From assembly GCF_006265225.1 (NCBI RefSeq), contig NZ_VDCS01000002.1:62001-126000 (forward strand): a DNA stretch of 64,000 nucleotides, in the 5' to 3' direction. The position numbers and the translations under genes were made by a program. This document shows, in pieces, positions 24,020-32,316 of this stretch; position 1 is the stretch's first letter; each line of letters opens with the position of its first letter. Source of the stretch: Allotamlana fucoidanivorans. Lineage in GTDB: Bacteria; Bacteroidota; Bacteroidia; Flavobacteriales; Flavobacteriaceae. Under the pieces are notes generated by a model, which did no database searches, had not been told where the DNA came from, and saw only the letters and a program-made list of their open reading frames with translations.

Positions 24020-24613
24020 TTATTTATGCCTTCCTTTTAGTTCTGCTTCAATATCTTTTAAGGTAAAACCTTTGGCTTGTAATAGCATGAGGTAATGGAA
24101 TAATAAATCGGCAGATTCATATAAGAATAATTCATCGTTACTATCCATGGCTTCTATTACCGTTTCAACAGCCTCCTCTCCTACTTTTTGCGCTACTTTA
24201 TTGATGCCTTTTGAAAACAAACTAGCTACATACGATTTAGCTGTATCTTTATTAGCTACTCGTTCTGAAATCACATGTTCAAGAGTTGAAAAGAATCCGT
24301 AATTCGATTCATTTTTTTCCTTCCAGCAGGTATCTGTTCCCGTATGACAGGTTGGCCCTGTAGGATTTACTTGAATTAAAAGAGAGTCATTATCGCAGTC
24401 GTTTTTTATATCAACCAAATTTAAAAAATTACCACTTTCTTCTCCTTTGGTCCATAAACGCTGTTTGCTTCTGCTAAAAAAAGTGACTTTTTTTGTTTCT
24501 AAAGTTTTTTGATAGGCGGCTTCATTCATGTAACCTAACATCAATACATTTTTTGTTACCGCATCTTGAATAATAGCGGGTACTAATCCGTTTTGATCGT
24601 ATTTTATTGTCAT
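24020..24613 (-). CDS. hisIE: HisIE, bifunctional PR-AMP cyclohydrolase / PR-ATP pyrophosphohydrolase
   Basis: A 197-residue fusion. The N-terminal HisI half (about 1-110) has the zinc and magnesium residues in DCDNDSLLIQV and GPTCHTGTDTCW. The C-terminal HisE half (about 115-197) is the all-alpha MazG-like fold with KVGEEAVETVIEAM and the ESADLLFHYLMLL helix. It catalyses steps 2 and 3 of histidine synthesis. It is the last gene of the leftward his operon. Confidence 0.96.
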   Translation of the reverse strand: MTIKYDQNGLVPAIIQDAVTKNVLMLGYMNEAAYQKTLETKKVTFFSRSKQRLWTKGEESGNFLNLVDIKNDCDNDSLLIQVNPTGPTCHTGTDTCWKEKNESNYGFFSTLEHVISERVANKDTAKSYVASLFSKGINKVAQKVGEEAVETVIEAMDSNDELFLYESADLLFHYLMLLQAKGFTLKDIEAELKGRHK

Positions 24614-24655
24614 TACTTTATGTTTTTAAGTCTGAATCATATTCTTGTTTACTAA

Positions 24656-25411
24656 CTAAAATCGTACTTCTATATGATTCGCCTTTAGTTCTTTTTTTAA
24701 ATATGGAATAGGGATTTCACCAAAATGAAATACACTTGCTGCTAACGCAGCATCCGATTTTCCTTCTTTAAATGTATCGATAAAATGCTGCACATTTCCT
24801 GCTCCCCCAGACGCGATAATTGGAATATTTAATTCCTCAGATAATTTTGCAAGGGCTACATTGGCAAACCCATTTTTAGTCCCATCATGATCCATTGAGG
24901 TGAATAAAATTTCGCCAGCACCACGTTGTTCTACTTCTTTGGCCCATTCAAATAAATCGATATCTGTCGGGATACTTCCGCCTGCCAAATGCACTTTCCA
25001 TTGTCCGTTAATTTGCTTGGCATCAATAGCTACAACCACACACTGACTCCCAAATTTATTAGCCAGTTCGTTAACCAATTCTGGTCTTTTAACTGCTGAA
25101 GAATTAATCGATACCTTATCAGCGCCACATTGTAGTAAAGCATCAACGTGCTCTACAGATGAAATTCCGCCACCAACAGTAAACGGTATATTTACCTGCT
25201 CTGCCACATGCATTACCATTTCTAAAGTAGTTGCACGTCCCTCTAAAGTGGCCGATATGTCTAAAAAAACCAGTTCGTCTGCACCATAATTAGCATATTG
25301 TTTAGCCAGTTCAACAGGATCTCCCGCATCACGTAGATCGACGAAATTTACACCTTTTACAGTGCGACCATCTTTAATATCTAAACAGGGTATAATTCGT
25401 TTTGTTAACAT
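24656..25411 (-). CDS. hisF: HisF, imidazole glycerol phosphate synthase cyclase subunit
   Basis: A 251-residue TIM barrel forming IGP and AICAR from PRFAR with ammonia delivered by HisH. Catalytic Asp11 lies in [13 protein letters not shown] and the second Asp, about 130, in VVVAIDAKQ. Phosphate loops TVGGGI and IIASGGAGN are present. It forms a complex with HisH encoded two genes upstream. Confidence 0.96.
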
Positions 25412-25465
25412 TTTTCTGGTTATTGGTTGGTAGTTATTGGTTATTAGGTTTATTTTATTAAATCA

Positions 25466-26191
25466 CTAATAATTAACTATATAATTTTCTAATTGTTTTA
25501 AACTGATTTTATTTTCGTATATCGCTTTACCAATAATAGTGCCTTCACACCCCAGATCTGCTAATTTAGGCAATTCGTCAAACTCTGAAATACCCCCACT
25601 GGCAATTAGTTTAATGTTTGGCAACGCTGCTAACATTTTTTTGTACAAATCGAATGAAGGGCCTTCTAACATCCCATCTTTAGCAATATCGGTGCAAATA
25701 ACGTACGACACGCCTTCCTTCATATAATTATCTACAAATGGAATAAGTTCTTCATCTGATTCTTCTAACCAACCACTAATAGCTATTTTTTCATTATTAG
25801 CATCGGCACCCAAAATAATTTTATCTGCACCAAATTTCGATAACCAATTTTTAAAAACTTCACGGTTCTTAACAGCTATACTGCCTCCGGTAATTTGTTT
25901 CGCACCAGACTCAAAAGCAATTTTTAAATCCTCATCGGTTTTTAAGCCGCCACCAAAATCTATCTTCAAGTTTGTTTTGGTAGCAATTTGTTCCAAAACT
26001 TTATGATTTACAATATGACTGGCCTTTGCACCATCTAAGTCTACCAAATGCAGATACTCAATACCATGATCTTCATATTGTTTTGCGATTTCTAACGGAT
26101 TTTCATTATAAACTTTTTTGGTGTTGTAATCACCTTTAGAAAGGCGTACACATTTTCCGTCTATGATGTCTATGGCTGGTATAATTCTCAT
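25466..26191 (-). CDS. hisA: HisA, ProFAR isomerase
   Basis: A 241-residue TIM barrel. The general base Asp8 lies in [16 protein letters not shown], and the second catalytic Asp is in [16 protein letters not shown]. Phosphate loops are IDFGGGLKT and LIASGGISE. It performs the Amadori rearrangement before HisFH. It starts 2 bp after the hisH stop. The 54-bp gap to hisF holds short GGTTATT-type direct repeats. Confidence 0.95.
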
Positions 26192-26193
26192 TC

Positions 26194-26775
26194 TTATAAA
26201 TCTAAAAAGTTTTGTAATATCTGTGCGCCTGCGGTACTACTTTTTTCTGGGTGAAATTGTACCCCATAAAAGTTTTTGTGTTGCAATGCCGATGCATAAT
26301 TTAAACCATAATCGGTTGTAGCAATGGTTTCAGGACAATGCTCTGCATAGTAGCTATGTACCAAATACATATACTCTTTTTCCTTGACATCCCTGAATAA
26401 TTTTGATTTTAAATTCTTAATCACGTTCCATCCCATTTGAGGCACTTTAACCGAATTATCAAAGCGTTTCACAACCGTTTTGAATACGCCTAGCCCCTTG
26501 GTATTGCCCTCTTCGGTAAACTCACAGAGTAATTGCATACCGAGGCATATGCCTAAAACAGGTTGCTTCAACTTTGGAATGAGTATATCTAACCCACTCT
26601 CTTTAAGCATGGTCATGGCGCTACTGGCTTCACCTACACCAGGAAAAATGACTTTATCGGCAGACTTTATTTCTTCGGGATTGTTTGATAATACAGCATC
26701 GTATCCTAAACGCTTAAAAGCAAATTGAATACTTTTAATATTACCAGCTCCATAATTTATAATAACTAACTTCAT
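26194..26775 (-). CDS. hisH: HisH, glutamine amidotransferase subunit of IGP synthase
   Basis: A 193-residue class I glutamine amidotransferase. The nucleophile Cys lies in [14 protein letters not shown]; the His and Glu of the triad are in [24 protein letters not shown] at the N-terminus is typical. It supplies ammonia to HisF. A 77-bp gap with GTTGATTGTT repeats separates it from hisB. Confidence 0.96.
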
Positions 26776-26852
26776 TTTTTAGTTGTTGATTGTTGGTTGA
26801 TTGTTACTCTTTTAAAAAACTATAATTAGTAACAAAAAGCTAACCACTAATT

Positions 26853-27992
26853 TTATAACATTCCTTTGGTTGAAGGTAAAAACATTTTATTAGCATCACG
26901 TTTTACCGCCATTTTCATCGCTTTAGCAAAGGCTTTAAAAATACCTTCAATTTTATGGTGTTCGTTAGTGCCTTCAGCTTTAATATTTAAGTTGCATTTA
27001 GCACCATCGGTAAACGATTTAAATAGGTGAAAAAACATTTCTGTTGGCATATCCCCTATTTTTTCACGCTTAAATTCTGCATCCCATTCTAACCAATTTC
27101 TACCTCCAAAATCAACCGCAACCTGAGCTAAACAATCGTCCATTGGCAAGCAAAAACCATAACGCTCTATACCTAATTTGTTTCCTAAGGCTTTGTTGAA
27201 TAATTCACCAAGAGCAATCATAGTGTCTTCAATGGTATGATGTTCGTCTACTTCTAAATCGCCAGAAACTTTTATGGTTAAATCCATAGCACCATGACGC
27301 CCAATTTGATCAAGCATGTGGTCAAAAAATGACAATCCCGTATCGATATCATTTTTACCCGAACCATCTAAATTCAATTTAATATAAATTTGAGTTTCGT
27401 TAGTGTTGCGTGTAATTTCAGACACTCGATCTTTAAGTTTTAAAAACTCGTAGATATCTTTCCAATCGGTGCTCGTTAATGCAATGGCATCCATAATTTC
27501 TTGTTTAGAAGCTTCTGTTTCATTTGCTCCCAATTCTGGATTTTCAGACAGAAAAATACCTTTAGCCCCTAAATTTTTAGCCAATTCCATATCGGTAATA
27601 CGATCACCCAATACAAATGAATTTTCTAAATCATAATCTTCAGAAAAATATTTGGTTAATAACCCTGTTCGAGGTTTGCGCGTTGGGGCATTTTCATGTG
27701 GAAAAGTTTTATCAATATGAATATCGGCAAACGTAACACCTTCCTTTTTAAAAGCATCAACAATTTTATTTTGAGCTGGCCAAAACGTATCTTCTGGAAA
27801 ACTATCGGTGCCTAAACCGTCTTGGTTGGTTACCATAACGAGCTCATAATCTAATTCTGAAGCTATTTTAGCCATGTATTGAAACACCTTAGGATAGAAC
27901 TCTAATTTTTCTAAACTATCTAATTGATAATCTACAGGTGGTTCTAAAACTAGGGTTCCATCACGGTCTATAAAAAGGACTTTCTTTTTCAT
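26853..27992 (-). CDS. hisB: HisB, bifunctional histidinol-phosphatase / IGP dehydratase
   Basis: A 379-residue fusion. The N-terminal HAD phosphatase (about 1-165) has the DxD motif FIDRDGTLV (Asp9, Asp11) and a zinc loop region near [16 protein letters not shown]. The C-terminal IGP dehydratase (about 190-379) has the two His clusters DEHHTIED and NEHHKIEG. It catalyses steps 7 and 9. The fused form occurs in Bacteroidota and Gammaproteobacteria. It starts directly after the hisC stop. Confidence 0.96.
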
Positions 27993-29027
27993 TTATATGG
28001 CTTTTAAATTTTGAATTAACACCTTATTTTCTTCTTGTGTTCCAATGGTAAGTCTTAAACAATTTTCACATCCTGGTTGTGTGGTTCTGTTTCTAACCAC
28101 AATACCTTTTTCAATCAATTGGTTATAACGTTTGGTTGCATCATCTACTTTTACCAACACAAAATTAGCATCTGTTGGATAAATTTTTAAAACGTAACTA
28201 ACGCCTTCTAAAGCATTAATAAGCGCTGCTCTTTCTTCTAAAATTGTAGCAACTTGTTCTTCTACTTTACTATAATTATTAAGCTGATTTAGCGCCCTTT
28301 GTTGTGTTAATTCGTTAACATTATACGGTGGTTTTATACGATTTAAAACCGAAATAATATCTTGGGAAGCATAACAAATACCCAAACGGATACCTGCCAT
28401 ACCGTAAGCTTTAGAAAGTGTTTGTGTAATGATTAAGTTTGGAAATTCGTTTAATCTACTAATCCAGCTTTCTTCATTTGAAAAATCGATATACGCTTCA
28501 TCAATAACAACAATCCCATTAAAACCTTTAACTAATTTTTCAATGCTTTTAGCTTCAAAACTATTACCCGAAGGATTGTTTGGTGAGCATAAAAATAATA
28601 GTTTAGATTTTGCGTCTTGTGCTTCTAAAATAGCTTCAACTTTAGGTTGAAAATTAGGATCTAATTGTATTTCTCTTATGGCAATGGCGTTAATATTTGC
28701 CAGTACGGTGTACATACCATAAGTGGGTGGTAATGTGATGATGTTATCCTGATTAGGCTCACAAAAAGTTCTGAAAATTAAATCTAAAACTTCATCGCTA
28801 CCATTACCTAAAAGTATATTTTGAGGCGCAACATGTTTTCTAACCGCAAGTAAGGTTTTAACACGACGTTGCAACGGATCTGGATAACGGTTCACGCCAT
28901 TTTCATAGGGATTCTCGTTAGCGTCAAGAAACACCATATCATCGCTATTTCCTTGAAATTCGTCTCTAGCTGAAGAATACGGTTTCAGGTTTCTAATCGC
29001 TGGCCTAATTAAATCTTGAATGTTCAT
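27993..29027 (-). CDS. hisC: HisC, histidinol-phosphate aminotransferase
   Basis: A 344-residue fold-type I PLP enzyme. The Schiff-base Lys is in TQTLSKAYGMAGIRLG; the PLP phosphate and aspartate contacts are NGSDEVLD and VVIDEAYIDF. SPNNPSGNSF is the usual substrate loop. It overlaps the hisD stop by one base, giving translational coupling. Confidence 0.95.
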   Translation of the reverse strand: MNIQDLIRPAIRNLKPYSSARDEFQGNSDDMVFLDANENPYENGVNRYPDPLQRRVKTLLAVRKHVAPQNILLGNGSDEVLDLIFRTFCEPNQDNIITLPPTYGMYTVLANINAIAIREIQLDPNFQPKVEAILEAQDAKSKLLFLCSPNNPSGNSFEAKSIEKLVKGFNGIVVIDEAYIDFSNEESWISRLNEFPNLIITQTLSKAYGMAGIRLGICYASQDIISVLNRIKPPYNVNELTQQRALNQLNNYSKVEEQVATILEERAALINALEGVSYVLKIYPTDANFVLVKVDDATKRYNQLIEKGIVVRNRTTQPGCENCLRLTIGTQEENKVLIQNLKAI

Positions 29028-30310
29028 TATTTTAAATCCTTTAATCGTATGGTAACTGCATTTTTGTGCGCTTGTAAACCTTCGGCTTCAGCCATAAGCT
29101 CTATGCTTTCTCCTATATTTAACAGCCCTGCTTTAGATATTTTTTGAAAGGTCATACTCTTTGTAAAACTATCTAAATTAACACCGGAATATGCTTTAGA
29201 AAATCCATTAGTTGGTAAGGTATGATTTGTTCCAGAGGCATAATCACCTGCACTTTCTGGCGTGTAGTCTCCTATAAAAATAGAACCCGCATTGCTAATA
29301 CCATTAACGTATAAATCTTCATTTTTAGAACAGATGATAAAGTGTTCTGGACCGTATTCATCAATAAGTTCTAAAGCTAAATCATCGTTATCAACATAAA
29401 TTAACTTAGAATTGGCTATGGCTTTTTCGGCAATATCACGTCTAGGTAAAACACTTAATTGTTTTTCAACTTCATCTGAAACTTTTTCAATAATATCTTG
29501 AGAAGTAGAGACTAAAATCACCTGACTATCTGCACCGTGTTCGGCTTGACTTAATAAATCTGAAGCGATATAAGACGGATTAGCACTTTCGTCTGCCACA
29601 ACTAAAAGTTCACTAGGCCCAGCAGGCATATCAATAGCCACACCAAATTTAGTAGCCAATTGTTTTGCAACGGTTACAAATTGGTTTCCTGGTCCGAAAA
29701 TTTTATAAACTTTAGGAATGGTTTCAGTACCAAAAGTTAAGCCAGCAATGGCTTGTATACCACCAACTTTTATAATTTTGGTTACACCACATAAATTTGC
29801 AGCATAAAGAATTTCAGGTGCCAGCTTACCTTCTTTATTAGGAGGTGAACACAATACAATTTCTTTACATCCTGCAATTTGAGCTGGAACGGCCAACATT
29901 AAAACCGTTGAAAATAAAGGCGCTGTACCTCCTGGAATATATAACCCAACTTTTTGAATCGGTCTTTTTTCCTGCCAACACGATACGCCCTCTGTAGTTT
30001 CTAGTTCTACTTTGGTTGTTTTTTGCGCCGTATGAAAGGCTTCAATATTTTGTTTAGCTAATAGAATAGCTTTTTTTAAAGGTTCTGAAACTTGAGCTAT
30101 AGCCTCGTTAATTTCGTCTACACTAACTACATTAGTATCTAACGAAACACCATCAAAACGGTGGGTAAACGCATTTACTGCAATATCTCCTTTTTCTGAA
30201 ACTTCTTTGAATATCTGATTTACAGTCCCTTCAATATCAACTACAGTTTGCGTTGGACGCTGTAAGATGGTTGTCCAATCCTCACGTTTAGGGTTATTTA
30301 TAATTTGCAT
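29027..30310 (-). CDS. hisD: HisD, histidinol dehydrogenase
   Basis: A 427-residue zinc enzyme that oxidises histidinol to histidine in two NAD steps. Motifs include YIPGGTAPLFSTVLM, FGPGNQFVTVAKQ, SQAEHGADSQV (zinc Gln and His region) and EHFII; the C-terminal LQAHKNAVTIR carries the last zinc His. Second gene of the operon, 16 bp after hisG. Confidence 0.96.
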   Translation of the reverse strand: MQIINNPKREDWTTILQRPTQTVVDIEGTVNQIFKEVSEKGDIAVNAFTHRFDGVSLDTNVVSVDEINEAIAQVSEPLKKAILLAKQNIEAFHTAQKTTKVELETTEGVSCWQEKRPIQKVGLYIPGGTAPLFSTVLMLAVPAQIAGCKEIVLCSPPNKEGKLAPEILYAANLCGVTKIIKVGGIQAIAGLTFGTETIPKVYKIFGPGNQFVTVAKQLATKFGVAIDMPAGPSELLVVADESANPSYIASDLLSQAEHGADSQVILVSTSQDIIEKVSDEVEKQLSVLPRRDIAEKAIANSKLIYVDNDDLALELIDEYGPEHFIICSKNEDLYVNGISNAGSIFIGDYTPESAGDYASGTNHTLPTNGFSKAYSGVNLDSFTKSMTFQKISKAGLLNIGESIELMAEAEGLQAHKNAVTIRLKDLK

Positions 30311-30326: not shown

Positions 30327-31184
30327 TTATAATACCATTTTCTCTATCGGACAAACTAAAATACCTTGAGCTCCTTTAGCTTTTAGATCGTCGATAACAT
30401 CCCAAAATTCATTTTTGCTAATTACAGAATGTACAGAACTCCATCCTTCTTGTGCCAAGGGTAGAACGGTTGGACTTTTCATCCCTGGTAACACGTCAAT
30501 AATATCCTGAAGCTTATCGTTAGGCGCATTTAACAATACATACTTTGAATCTCTACCTTTTAAAACCGATTTAATTCTAAACTGAATGGTTTCTAAAATG
30601 GCTTGACGCTCGGCATCTAATTTAGGCGATACAGCAAGCACAGCTTCAGATTTTAATATGGTTTCAACCTCTTTTAAGTTGTTTTTAAATAAGGTGCTTC
30701 CACTTGAAACGATATCGCAAATAGCATCGGCTAAACCAATATTTGGCGCAATTTCAACCGAACCATTAATAATGTGAAGGTTTGCATTTACACCATTTTC
30801 ATCTAAATACATTTGAACTGTATTGGGATAAGAGGTCGCAATACGCTTTCCTTCAAGATCTTTTATGTTCTTAAATTTTGCAGCTTTAGGCACAGCAATA
30901 CAAACACGACACGATGAAAAACCTAATTTTTCAACAACATTAATGCCGGCTCCTTTTTCAATTAAAACATTTTCACCTATAATAGCTGCATCAACCACAC
31001 CATCTTTTAAATACTGAGGAATATCGCCATTTCTGAGATAAAAAACTTCCACTGGAAAATTTCTTGCCGAAGCTTTTAATTGGTCCTTCCCATTATCAAT
31101 GGAAATACCAATATCTTTTAAAATTTTCATCGAGTCTTCGTTTAAACGCCCCGATTTTTGTACTGCAATTCTTAATTTACTCAT
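30327..31184 (-). CDS. hisG: HisG, ATP phosphoribosyltransferase, long form
   Basis: A 285-residue long-form HisG, the first and feedback-controlled enzyme of the pathway. The periplasmic-binding-like catalytic domains (about 1-205) hold LRIAVQKSGRLNEDS and DAICDIVSSGSTLFKNNL, the PRPP-binding motif. The C-terminal ACT-like domain (about 210-285), with GMKSPTVLPLAQEGWSSVHSVI, binds histidine, so no HisZ is needed. Transcription is controlled by the attenuator just upstream. Confidence 0.96.
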   Translation of the reverse strand: MSKLRIAVQKSGRLNEDSMKILKDIGISIDNGKDQLKASARNFPVEVFYLRNGDIPQYLKDGVVDAAIIGENVLIEKGAGINVVEKLGFSSCRVCIAVPKAAKFKNIKDLEGKRIATSYPNTVQMYLDENGVNANLHIINGSVEIAPNIGLADAICDIVSSGSTLFKNNLKEVETILKSEAVLAVSPKLDAERQAILETIQFRIKSVLKGRDSKYVLLNAPNDKLQDIIDVLPGMKSPTVLPLAQEGWSSVHSVISKNEFWDVIDDLKAKGAQGILVCPIEKMVL

Positions 31185-31228
31185 TTTATTGTTTTTATGA
31201 GTTTGAACAATTCAAGTGATTTTTAAAA

Positions 31229-31263
31229 ATAAAAACCCGCTTGATTGTCTCAAACGGGTTTAA
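31229..31263 (-). terminator. Attenuator terminator of the his operon
   Basis: On the minus strand AAACCCG-TTTGA (arm 31261-31250) and TCAAGCGGGTTT (arm 31244-31233) form a 12-bp stem with one mismatch and a GACAA loop, followed by UUUUUAUUUUU. It lies between the His-rich leader peptide and hisG. Its 5' arm (31255-31248, GTTTGAGA) can instead pair with TCTCAAGC of the leader (31307-31300). Confidence 0.85.
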
Positions 31264-31292
31264 AATATATGTTGAATTTATTCAATACATTT

Positions 31293-31346
31293 TCACTTCG
31301 CTTGAGAGCAAATTTGGAAATGATGATGTAAATGAATAAAAGTCAT
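31293..31346 (-). CDS. hisL: His operon leader peptide
   Basis: A 17-codon frame, MTFIHLHHHFQICSQAK, with CAT codons at positions 5, 7, 8 and 9 and a TGA stop. It lies about 30 bp before the attenuator terminator and about 11 bp after the predicted transcription start. When charged His-tRNA is scarce, a ribosome stalled at the His codons would leave codons 13-17 (TCTCAAGC) free to pair with the terminator's 5' arm. This is the logic of the enteric his attenuator, assembled independently here. Too short for ordinary gene callers. I am confident because peptide, antiterminator, terminator and operon all agree. Confidence 0.85.
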   Translation of the reverse strand: MTFIHLHHHFQICSQAK

Positions 31347-31363
31347 GTCTTATTTTTCTATTG

Positions 31364-31396
31364 CAAATATCAGTAATTAATCTTTATAAATCCAAA
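31364..31396 (-). promoter_or_regulatory. Promoter of the his operon
   Basis: On the minus strand a TTTG (31396-31393) is followed after 21 bp by GATATTTG (31371-31364), one mismatch from TAnnTTTG. Transcription would begin just before the leader peptide ATG. Confidence 0.6.
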
Positions 31397-31500
31397 TTCT
31401 AAATACAATTCTTAAAACATTTAGAAATTATTAATTTTTGTATGAAAAAAAATGACAAATCATTAAAAGATAAACTGATATGCTGAATTATTTTTTGAAC

Positions 31501-32316
31501 TTATTGATTTCCTAAAATAATAGGCATACCACTATCTCCAGAACCAATCACAATAACTTTACTATTTGGTGATTCAGACAATTTAATAGTAGCCTCAATA
31601 CCCTTATCTTGTAATATTTTATCAGTTAATGACGCACTTAAAATCTTGTTTGCATCCGCTTTACCTTGAGCTTCAATACGTTGTTTTTCTGCTTCCTTTT
31701 GCGCTGTAATAAGCCTAAATTCATACTCTAATGATTGTTGTTCTTGCCCTAGCTTGCGTTCAATAGCATCTTTTATAGCGGTTGGAAGTGTTACATCTCT
31801 TACCAAAACTTCAACCAAATCAATATATTGATCATCCACTATTTTTTTAGTTTCATCATATATTTCTTGTTGAATGGCATCCCGCTTAGATGAATAAATT
31901 TGCTCTGGTGTATAGCGTCCCACCACACTTCTTGTTGCCGATCTGATAGCTGGTTTTAAAACACGTTCTAAATAATTAGAACCTTTTTCCTGATGCAACT
32001 TCCCTAAGTTTTCCAATTCAGGTTTATACCATGCTGTAGCTTCTAACTGAATATCTAATCCATTTGACGACAACACCTTCATACGTTCTGTTAATTCTTG
32101 CTGACGTGCTTCATAAATAAAAACTTTATTCCATGGTGCTACAATATGAAACCCTTCACCTAGTGGTGCCTTATCGGTTACAACACCGCCACCAAATGTT
32201 TTATACAAAACACCTGCTTCACCGGAACCTATGGTAACGGCCGATTTTGTTATTACAACAATTAATATGATTATTGCAATGATTACGGGAAATGCAATTT
32301 TTGGTAATTTTTCCAT
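31501..32316 (-). CDS. SPFH/prohibitin-family membrane protein
   Basis: A 271-residue protein with one N-terminal membrane helix (about 8-28) and an SPFH/Band-7 domain (IGSGEAGVLYKTFGGGVV, then PLGEGFHIVAPW). A long Gln/Glu/Lys-rich coiled coil (about 185-235, EYEFRLITAQKEAEKQRIEAQGKADA) and a short hydrophobic C-terminus follow. This is the prohibitin layout; such proteins form ring oligomers and organise membrane proteases or microdomains. It is 11 bp downstream of a VWA membrane protein gene, so the two are probably one operon. Confidence 0.88.
   Translation of the reverse strand: MEKLPKIAFPVIIAIIILIVVITKSAVTIGSGEAGVLYKTFGGGVVTDKAPLGEGFHIVAPWNKVFIYEARQQELTERMKVLSSNGLDIQLEATAWYKPELENLGKLHQEKGSNYLERVLKPAIRSATRSVVGRYTPEQIYSSKRDAIQQEIYDETKKIVDDQYIDLVEVLVRDVTLPTAIKDAIERKLGQEQQSLEYEFRLITAQKEAEKQRIEAQGKADANKILSASLTDKILQDKGIEATIKLSESPNSKVIVIGSGDSGMPIILGNQ

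Follow-up and report, generated by a model that had tools for sequence, protein, structure and literature searches.

The hisG Leader Region of Allotamlana fucoidanivorans as a Probable Ribosome-mediated Attenuator of the Histidine Operon

The region upstream of hisG in Allotamlana fucoidanivorans raises the question of how transcription of a his operon is controlled in the Bacteroidota, in which translation is mostly initiated without a Shine-Dalgarno sequence. Attenuation by His leaders is classic; in the enteric his attenuator, a leader containing His codons, a terminator, and a competing antiterminator precede hisG. A reading based on sequence alone (the sequence-only reading) had proposed that a complete his attenuation module lies upstream of hisG in the window, by which is meant the whole stretch of 64,000 nucleotides that was analyzed, and all of its parts are present on the minus strand. 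We consider the locus to act on the his operon as a ribosome-mediated transcription attenuator (probability about 0.9), a reading that draws on comparison between loci for its pairing elements and on geometry and predicted folding for the steps that involve the ribosome. It is comparison that decides in its favor, through the His leaders, terminators, and covariation found across loci.

Leader, Promoter, and Terminator

The hisG gene (30327-31184, minus strand), which is identified by a PF01634 match at this place, is the first structural gene of the operon, and its product shares 92% identity with the HisG proteins of two Flavobacteriaceae, Algibacter mikhailovii and Tamlana agarivorans. The rest of the operon (24020-30310, minus strand) is recognized from its ORFs and their order, and, judging from their sequences, we take these genes to be hisD, hisC, hisB, hisH, hisA, hisF, and hisIE, in that order. 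The preceding gene on the same strand, presumably encoding an SPFH/band-7-like protein, ends at 31501, and the 316 nt between it and hisG hold the promoter, the leader ORF, and the terminator.

The loci used for comparison came from a same-family and same-order search, in which 41 of 60 genomes, including that of A. fucoidanivorans, contain hisG (30 loci), from a genome-contig set of 80 loci, one of which (L058) is without upstream DNA, and from a class search, in which 127 of 295 genomes, again including its own, gave a match (28 new loci). Another 80 short stretches, nine of them from the family/order search, were added to the class set, which omits 20 listed near-full-length places together with fragments, mostly weaker matches. 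The upstream regions are identical in L007 and L063, in L009 and L079, and in L010 and L086.

The leader ORF, MTFIHLHHHFQICSQAK followed by a TGA stop codon, occupies 31293-31346 of the minus strand and, as had been described, has 17 codons, four of which (codons 5, 7, 8, and 9) specify His. When the 350 nt before hisG in the window are shuffled with dinucleotide frequencies kept, a leader with at least four His residues as densely placed appears in 8 of 5000 shuffles. Among relatives, a dense His leader, defined as an ATG-started ORF with at least three His in eight codons within 350 nt of hisG, is found in 201 of 217 upstream regions (198 of 214 after the three identical regions are dropped), compared with 89 of 4340 shuffled regions (2%). 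The remaining 16 regions include two that have two His in eight codons and several with a His-rich ORF that starts with GTG or TTG.

The promoter that had been noted upstream of the leader (31364-31396, minus strand) is present, but it is not of the sigma-70 type, a scan for which found no promoter at 31364-31396. It is of the Bacteroidetes type, with TTTG at 31396-31393, a 21-nt spacer, and GATATTTG at 31371-31364, an identification that depends on what we take to be the consensus and transcription start spacing of such promoters. The GATATTTG box ends 17 nt 5′ of the leader ATG. In 95 of the 103 flavobacterial-set leaders, a TAnnTTTG box with no more than one mismatch in the TA is present no farther than 60 nt from the leader start, this one-mismatch form being counted without a control, and in 73 of these 95 it is at 16-19 nt. 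The exact box is present in 18 of the 103, as compared with 5% of shuffles, and, within 60 nt, in 71 of 93 class-set leaders, as compared with 3.5% of shuffles. Transcripts in Bacteroidota start a few bases after the promoter box. If this spacing applies here, the position of the box gives the RNA of the window a 5′ leader of 10-14 nt and makes some relatives nearly leaderless; the box ends no more than 8 nt before the ATG in 22 of the 84 class-set leaders with a scored box, which would make these leaders leaderless or nearly so. The comment in the sequence-only reading that initiation of the leader deserves attention was apt, since a Shine-Dalgarno-like motif is present in only 1 of 103 flavobacterial-set leaders and 2 of 93 class-set leaders. 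Adenine is enriched 5′ of the leader ATG, chiefly in the flavobacterial set.

The predicted 12-bp terminator with its U-run was recovered by a terminator scan at 31233-31261 of the minus strand, where a stem of 12 pairs, five of them G-C, encloses a loop of 5 and is followed by TTATTTTT (31232-31225). It is the sole terminator-like site found in 31180-31520, for which shuffles give an expectation of 0.0 ± 0.1, and the leader-terminator pattern has a single occurrence in the 4.0-Mb genome. Of 203 loci scanned, 197 have a hairpin followed by a T-run after the leader, with a median energy of −16.5 kcal/mol; among the 201 His-leader loci, the terminator is at −9 kcal/mol or better in 189 and is weaker than this or missing in the other 12. 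It could be argued that the hairpin in the window is a plain terminator of the upstream SPFH/band-7-like gene and the His-rich ORF is incidental, given that no other terminator-like site was found between 31520 and 31180 and that the hairpin is on the same strand as this gene and beyond its end at 31501. However, the His leader recurs at 201 of 217 loci, whereas chance would give 2%, and leader and terminator covary, as described below, which makes this explanation very improbable.

Competing Helices and Their Covariation

The antiterminator strand of the leader, TCTCAAGCG (31299-31307, minus strand), corresponds to codons 14-16, and its partner, CGTTTGAGA (31248-31256, minus strand), is formed by part of the terminator 5′ arm and the first bases of the loop; both assignments draw on pairing tests in which each locus is compared with swapped partners and on pair counts, and that of the partner also on matched changes in alignment columns. 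The proposal that TCTCAAGC pairs with GTTTGAGA through seven Watson-Crick pairs and one G-U is correct, and an extra G-C pair lengthens the helix to nine (31307-31299 with 31256-31248). The antiterminator excludes the terminator through the strand that they share, 31256-31250. In the CGTTTGA type, which is that of flavobacteria, the leader typically ends in CTCAAGCG or CTCAGGCG, pairing with CGTTTGAG or CGTCTGAG of the terminator. Many of the other loci (37 of 60 distinct arms) have GGCTT in the terminator arm, and there the leader strand resembles GGTAAGCC. The antiterminator strand includes the leader stop codon in 25 of 186 loci.

When leaders and terminators were exchanged between loci, after identical pairs had been dropped (189 reduced to 180), the pairing energy was −13.49 kcal/mol for own-locus pairs and −10.18 ± 0.20 kcal/mol for swapped pairs; 0 of 20,000 permutations were as good overall, a statistic that still contains kinship and shared base composition. 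The result was again 0 of 20,000 when each group was taken separately: CGTTTGA (116), GGCTT (37 distinct arms), and the remaining loci (23). The concern about relatedness and composition is reduced by these within-type results, by the spacer shuffles described below, and by compensatory changes.

The compensatory changes are seen in alignment A1, which contains 50 diverse sequences of the CGTTTGA type. The terminator has 98.2% of its cells paired and 28 double changes, as compared with 5.5 in shuffles. The antiterminator has 87.9% of its cells paired and 22 double changes, as compared with 13.1 in shuffles; 11 of these 22 fall at one loosely paired end position, and in A1 the doubly changed pairs and pair types of this helix show no excess over shuffles, the paired cells and the score alone exceeding them. 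One position links all three strands. In most A1 sequences, columns 118 (terminator 5′ arm), 134 (3′ arm), and 54 (leader) are U, A, and A, respectively, but in the 10 sequences with C at column 118, columns 134 and 54 are both G in 10 of 10; where column 118 is U (n = 40), the leader column is A in 29 and G, giving a wobble pair, in 9. Of the 10 sequences with C at column 118, 9 have CAG in the leader instead of CAA, a change that leaves Gln unaltered; in the tenth (L029), the leader change falls after the stop codon. In L008, L012, and L071, TAA replaces the conserved Gln codon CAA, so that the peptide is shorter, and the helix is kept by a U-G pair. Because of these silent CAA/CAG matches and the retention of the helix where Gln is replaced by a stop, the conserved C-terminal end of the leader peptide appears to reflect a constraint on the RNA rather than a function of the peptide. 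Thus, conserved His codons (201 of 217 upstream regions) and compensatory changes in both stems, the comparative features that were to be sought in relatives, are both found.

These observations also bear on whether the leader acts mainly on translation, by reinitiation or nascent-peptide arrest, rather than on transcription. Precedent comes from a survey (PMC4833913) in which leader genes are described as often lying 11-14 bp before structural genes in Bacteroidetes and reinitiation is proposed. At the present locus, by contrast, 108 nt and a terminator separate the leader stop codon from hisG, the conserved C-terminal residues follow the RNA helix, which is kept where the Gln codon has become a stop, and other lineages have a different helix at the leader end. 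A principal role in translation is therefore highly unlikely, and attenuation of transcription continues to be the preferred reading.

A further helix may involve the 5′ part of the leader. Folding of the RNA from 31357 to 31185, which had been suggested as a check, gave a structure better than those of shuffles (z = −5.25), and the minimum free energy fold contains a candidate protector hairpin (31277-31340, minus strand) in which codons 3-7 (31340-31333 and 31330-31326) pair with the stretch after the stop codon (31290-31286 and 31284-31277). TTTATTCAATTACAT of the leader and ATGTATTGAATAAA past the stop codon lie opposite each other in many of the flavobacterial relatives. In a swap test, own-locus pairs gave −13.28 as compared with −10.07 for swapped pairs (0 of 20,000), a difference that unequal piece lengths may inflate, and the pair counts are weaker than those of the other helices, with 69.6% of cells paired; the doubly changed pairs show no excess over shuffles, and slid versions of the helix have similar double changes. 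With moderate confidence, we regard this hairpin as a candidate protector of the antiterminator strand. The small TTGAAT-AA-ATTCAA hairpin that had been expected to bridge the antiterminator arms exists, but inspection of A1 by eye indicates that it is not conserved as such and that its first half, TTGAAT, is more conserved in pairing with leader codons 3-7, so that the candidate protector hairpin is the better conserved alternative.

Ribosome Position and Proposed Mechanism

The consequences of ribosome position were modeled by placing the front of the ribosome 12 nt past the beginning of the A-site codon; the remaining RNA was then folded as far as the terminator loop. Of the 201 His-leader loci, 186 were used, namely those in which the leader has at least three His in eight codons, the terminator is at −9 kcal/mol or better, and the stem-loop is no longer than 45 nt; it should be noted that the model is a thermodynamic sketch rather than a kinetic one and that these loci are preselected for a leader and a terminator. 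With a ribosome stalled at either the first or the middle His codon, the terminator 5′ arm is predicted to be paired upstream with a median probability of 0.70. This median falls to 0.16 for a ribosome at the stop codon, where the terminator pairs have a median probability of 0.96. The difference between the stalled and stop states exceeds 0.3 in 175 of the 186 loci (178 with a 15-nt front) and falls short of it in 11. Shuffling of the spacer lowers the mean stalled value from 0.71 to 0.42, and the real spacer is better than the mean of its own shuffles in 184 of 186 loci, although no more than two of 50 shuffles are as good in only 114 of 186. The middle His codon and the antiterminator strand are 20 nt apart (interquartile range, 17-21), and the strand lies within the shadow of a ribosome at the stop codon in 178 of 186 loci. 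The earlier suggestion that the parts fit the enteric logic, in which stalling at the His codons selects the antiterminator, is supported by this predicted folding and geometry, with the ribosome at the His codons as well as at the stop codon.

The following sequence of events is proposed. RNA polymerase would start about 10-14 nt before the leader, and a ribosome would begin the 17-codon leader without the aid of a Shine-Dalgarno site. When charged His-tRNA is in short supply, the ribosome would stall at codons 5-9, covering the 5′ part of the leader and leaving codons 14-16 free, so that UCUCAAGCG could pair with CGUUUGAGA once this had been transcribed, the terminator would be blocked, and the his genes would be transcribed. 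When histidine is plentiful, the ribosome would reach the stop codon and cover codons 14-16, and the CGUUUGA strand would fold into the terminator. The least certain step concerns RNA that carries no ribosome, in which the hairpin between codons 3-7 and the post-stop stretch may trap the antiterminator strand, a role like that of the 1:2 hairpin of trp. In the predictions, this hairpin wins in L002 and L003 but not in the RNA of the window, for which the availability of the antiterminator is predicted to be 0.64 without a ribosome and 0.65 with a stalled one; the value without a ribosome has a median of 0.45 over all loci and is 0.11 in L002 and 0.18 in L003.

Known Systems and Distribution in the Bacteroidota

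The locus resembles the enteric His_leader (RF00514) in having a leader with His codons, a terminator, and a competing antiterminator before hisG. It differs from the enteric layout in being simpler, with the antiterminator strand inside the last codons of the leader, and in having a leader that starts without a Shine-Dalgarno site. No Rfam family, including RF00514 and the T-box models, is detected in the window at the gathering score. At an E value of up to 10, 14 weak matches to 31150-31520 are obtained, all below their cut-offs and RF00514 not among them; SpF11_sRNA, the best of these (27.2 bits versus a cut-off of 54), and Trp_leader (17.1 bits versus a cut-off of 41) were both rejected. 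This result bears on the possibility that an RNA or protein, such as a T-box, riboswitch, or repressor, senses histidine or uncharged tRNA directly, with the leader secondary. In Firmicutes, his genes are under the control of T-boxes and of the repressor HisR (PMC9413887), but in the window there is no Rfam family at cut-off, and the conserved parts are codons and two competing helices. We give direct sensing very little weight as compared with attenuation by the ribosome.

The same report describes his attenuators that have competing hairpins and leaders of three to five His codons in Firmicutes, namely, in the Bacillus cereus group, Peptostreptococcaceae, and Erysipelotrichales (PMC9413887); the likeness to the present locus is one of description, not sequence, and the phylum is different. 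In Flavobacterium psychrophilum, a section of a 2021 study reports structured 5′ regions, among them one at hisG that is conserved in other genera of Flavobacteriaceae and gives no Rfam hit, and sees strong clues for leader-peptide attenuation in amino acid operons (PMC9723704). That section gives no sequence, leader, or mechanism for the hisG element, which is probably the same element as that described here. A literature search gave no recognized description of a Bacteroidetes his leader, but the survey of Lopatovskaya et al. (2010) may mention one, and absence from print is not claimed. What is already known is therefore the kind of regulation, His-leader attenuation, and the existence of a conserved hisG 5′ element in Flavobacteriaceae; the mechanism, the covariation, the breadth, and the start without a Shine-Dalgarno site are added here.

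Like the present locus, Bacteroid-trp (RF01692) is a cis-regulatory motif in Bacteroidetes (PMC2864571), but the his leader does not match it and has different codons. The A. fucoidanivorans genome contains one match to RF01692, located before trpE, with a WWW leader, MNAILNYTWWWCFRN (L219:1523-1570, contig C118), and a terminator of −15.9 kcal/mol. This leader is clear, although its antiterminator, found by the same method, is weak (−7.1). Two other ORFs in this genome are leads only. One is a candidate branched-chain leader before ilvD, MKKYGLNIISEVVVIISQR (L250, minus strand, 1044-1103, contig C140), with a hairpin of −11.2 kcal/mol followed by a T-run and a possible antiterminator of −11.5. 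The other is a Thr-rich ORF, MPSIFGTTTNITTPWGC (L253:847-900, contig C61), a candidate threonine leader 82 nt before the aspartokinase-homoserine dehydrogenase ORF at 983, and no intrinsic terminator was found after it. Small ORFs are present upstream of a second homoserine dehydrogenase gene.

His leaders extend beyond the class. In a search of the phylum, 171 of 198 genomes contain hisG, and 20 of the 30 loci listed are from other classes; in 18 of these 20, a dense His ORF lies no more than 500 nt away (all start codons being allowed, without a shuffle control), and in 5 a compact terminator starts no farther than 70 nt from hisG. In six loci of another class (L226, L229, L230, L233, L235, and L237), similar His leaders, mostly approximating HHAHHGHH or HHAHRGHH, occur without a compact terminator just before hisG. 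In the class set, 12 of 94 leaders have no strong terminator. In L186, L187, L189, L205, L206, L215, L217, and L218, the His leader upstream of hisG lacks a strong intrinsic terminator, and in several such loci a hairpin lies over or next to the leader stop codon, for example, ATTCCTC-TTGA-GAGGAAT in L205. The idea that leaders without a terminator have a stronger hairpin at the stop codon was rejected (−7 kcal/mol is reached in 6 of 12 versus 29 of 82 with a terminator; means of −4.95 and −5.49, respectively). It is conceivable, though we would put it at somewhat below even odds, that His attenuation is ancestral to Bacteroidota, with non-Shine-Dalgarno starts that are often near the 5′ end of the RNA, and that lineages lacking the terminator need another off-switch, such as Rho.

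Attenuation of this kind requires tight coupling of translation to transcription and efficient initiation on a very short leader. The locus is a model for the control of histidine synthesis in Bacteroidota, and an attenuator whose 5′ leader is about a dozen bases long, if it works, would be a compact natural reporter of coupling and initiation.
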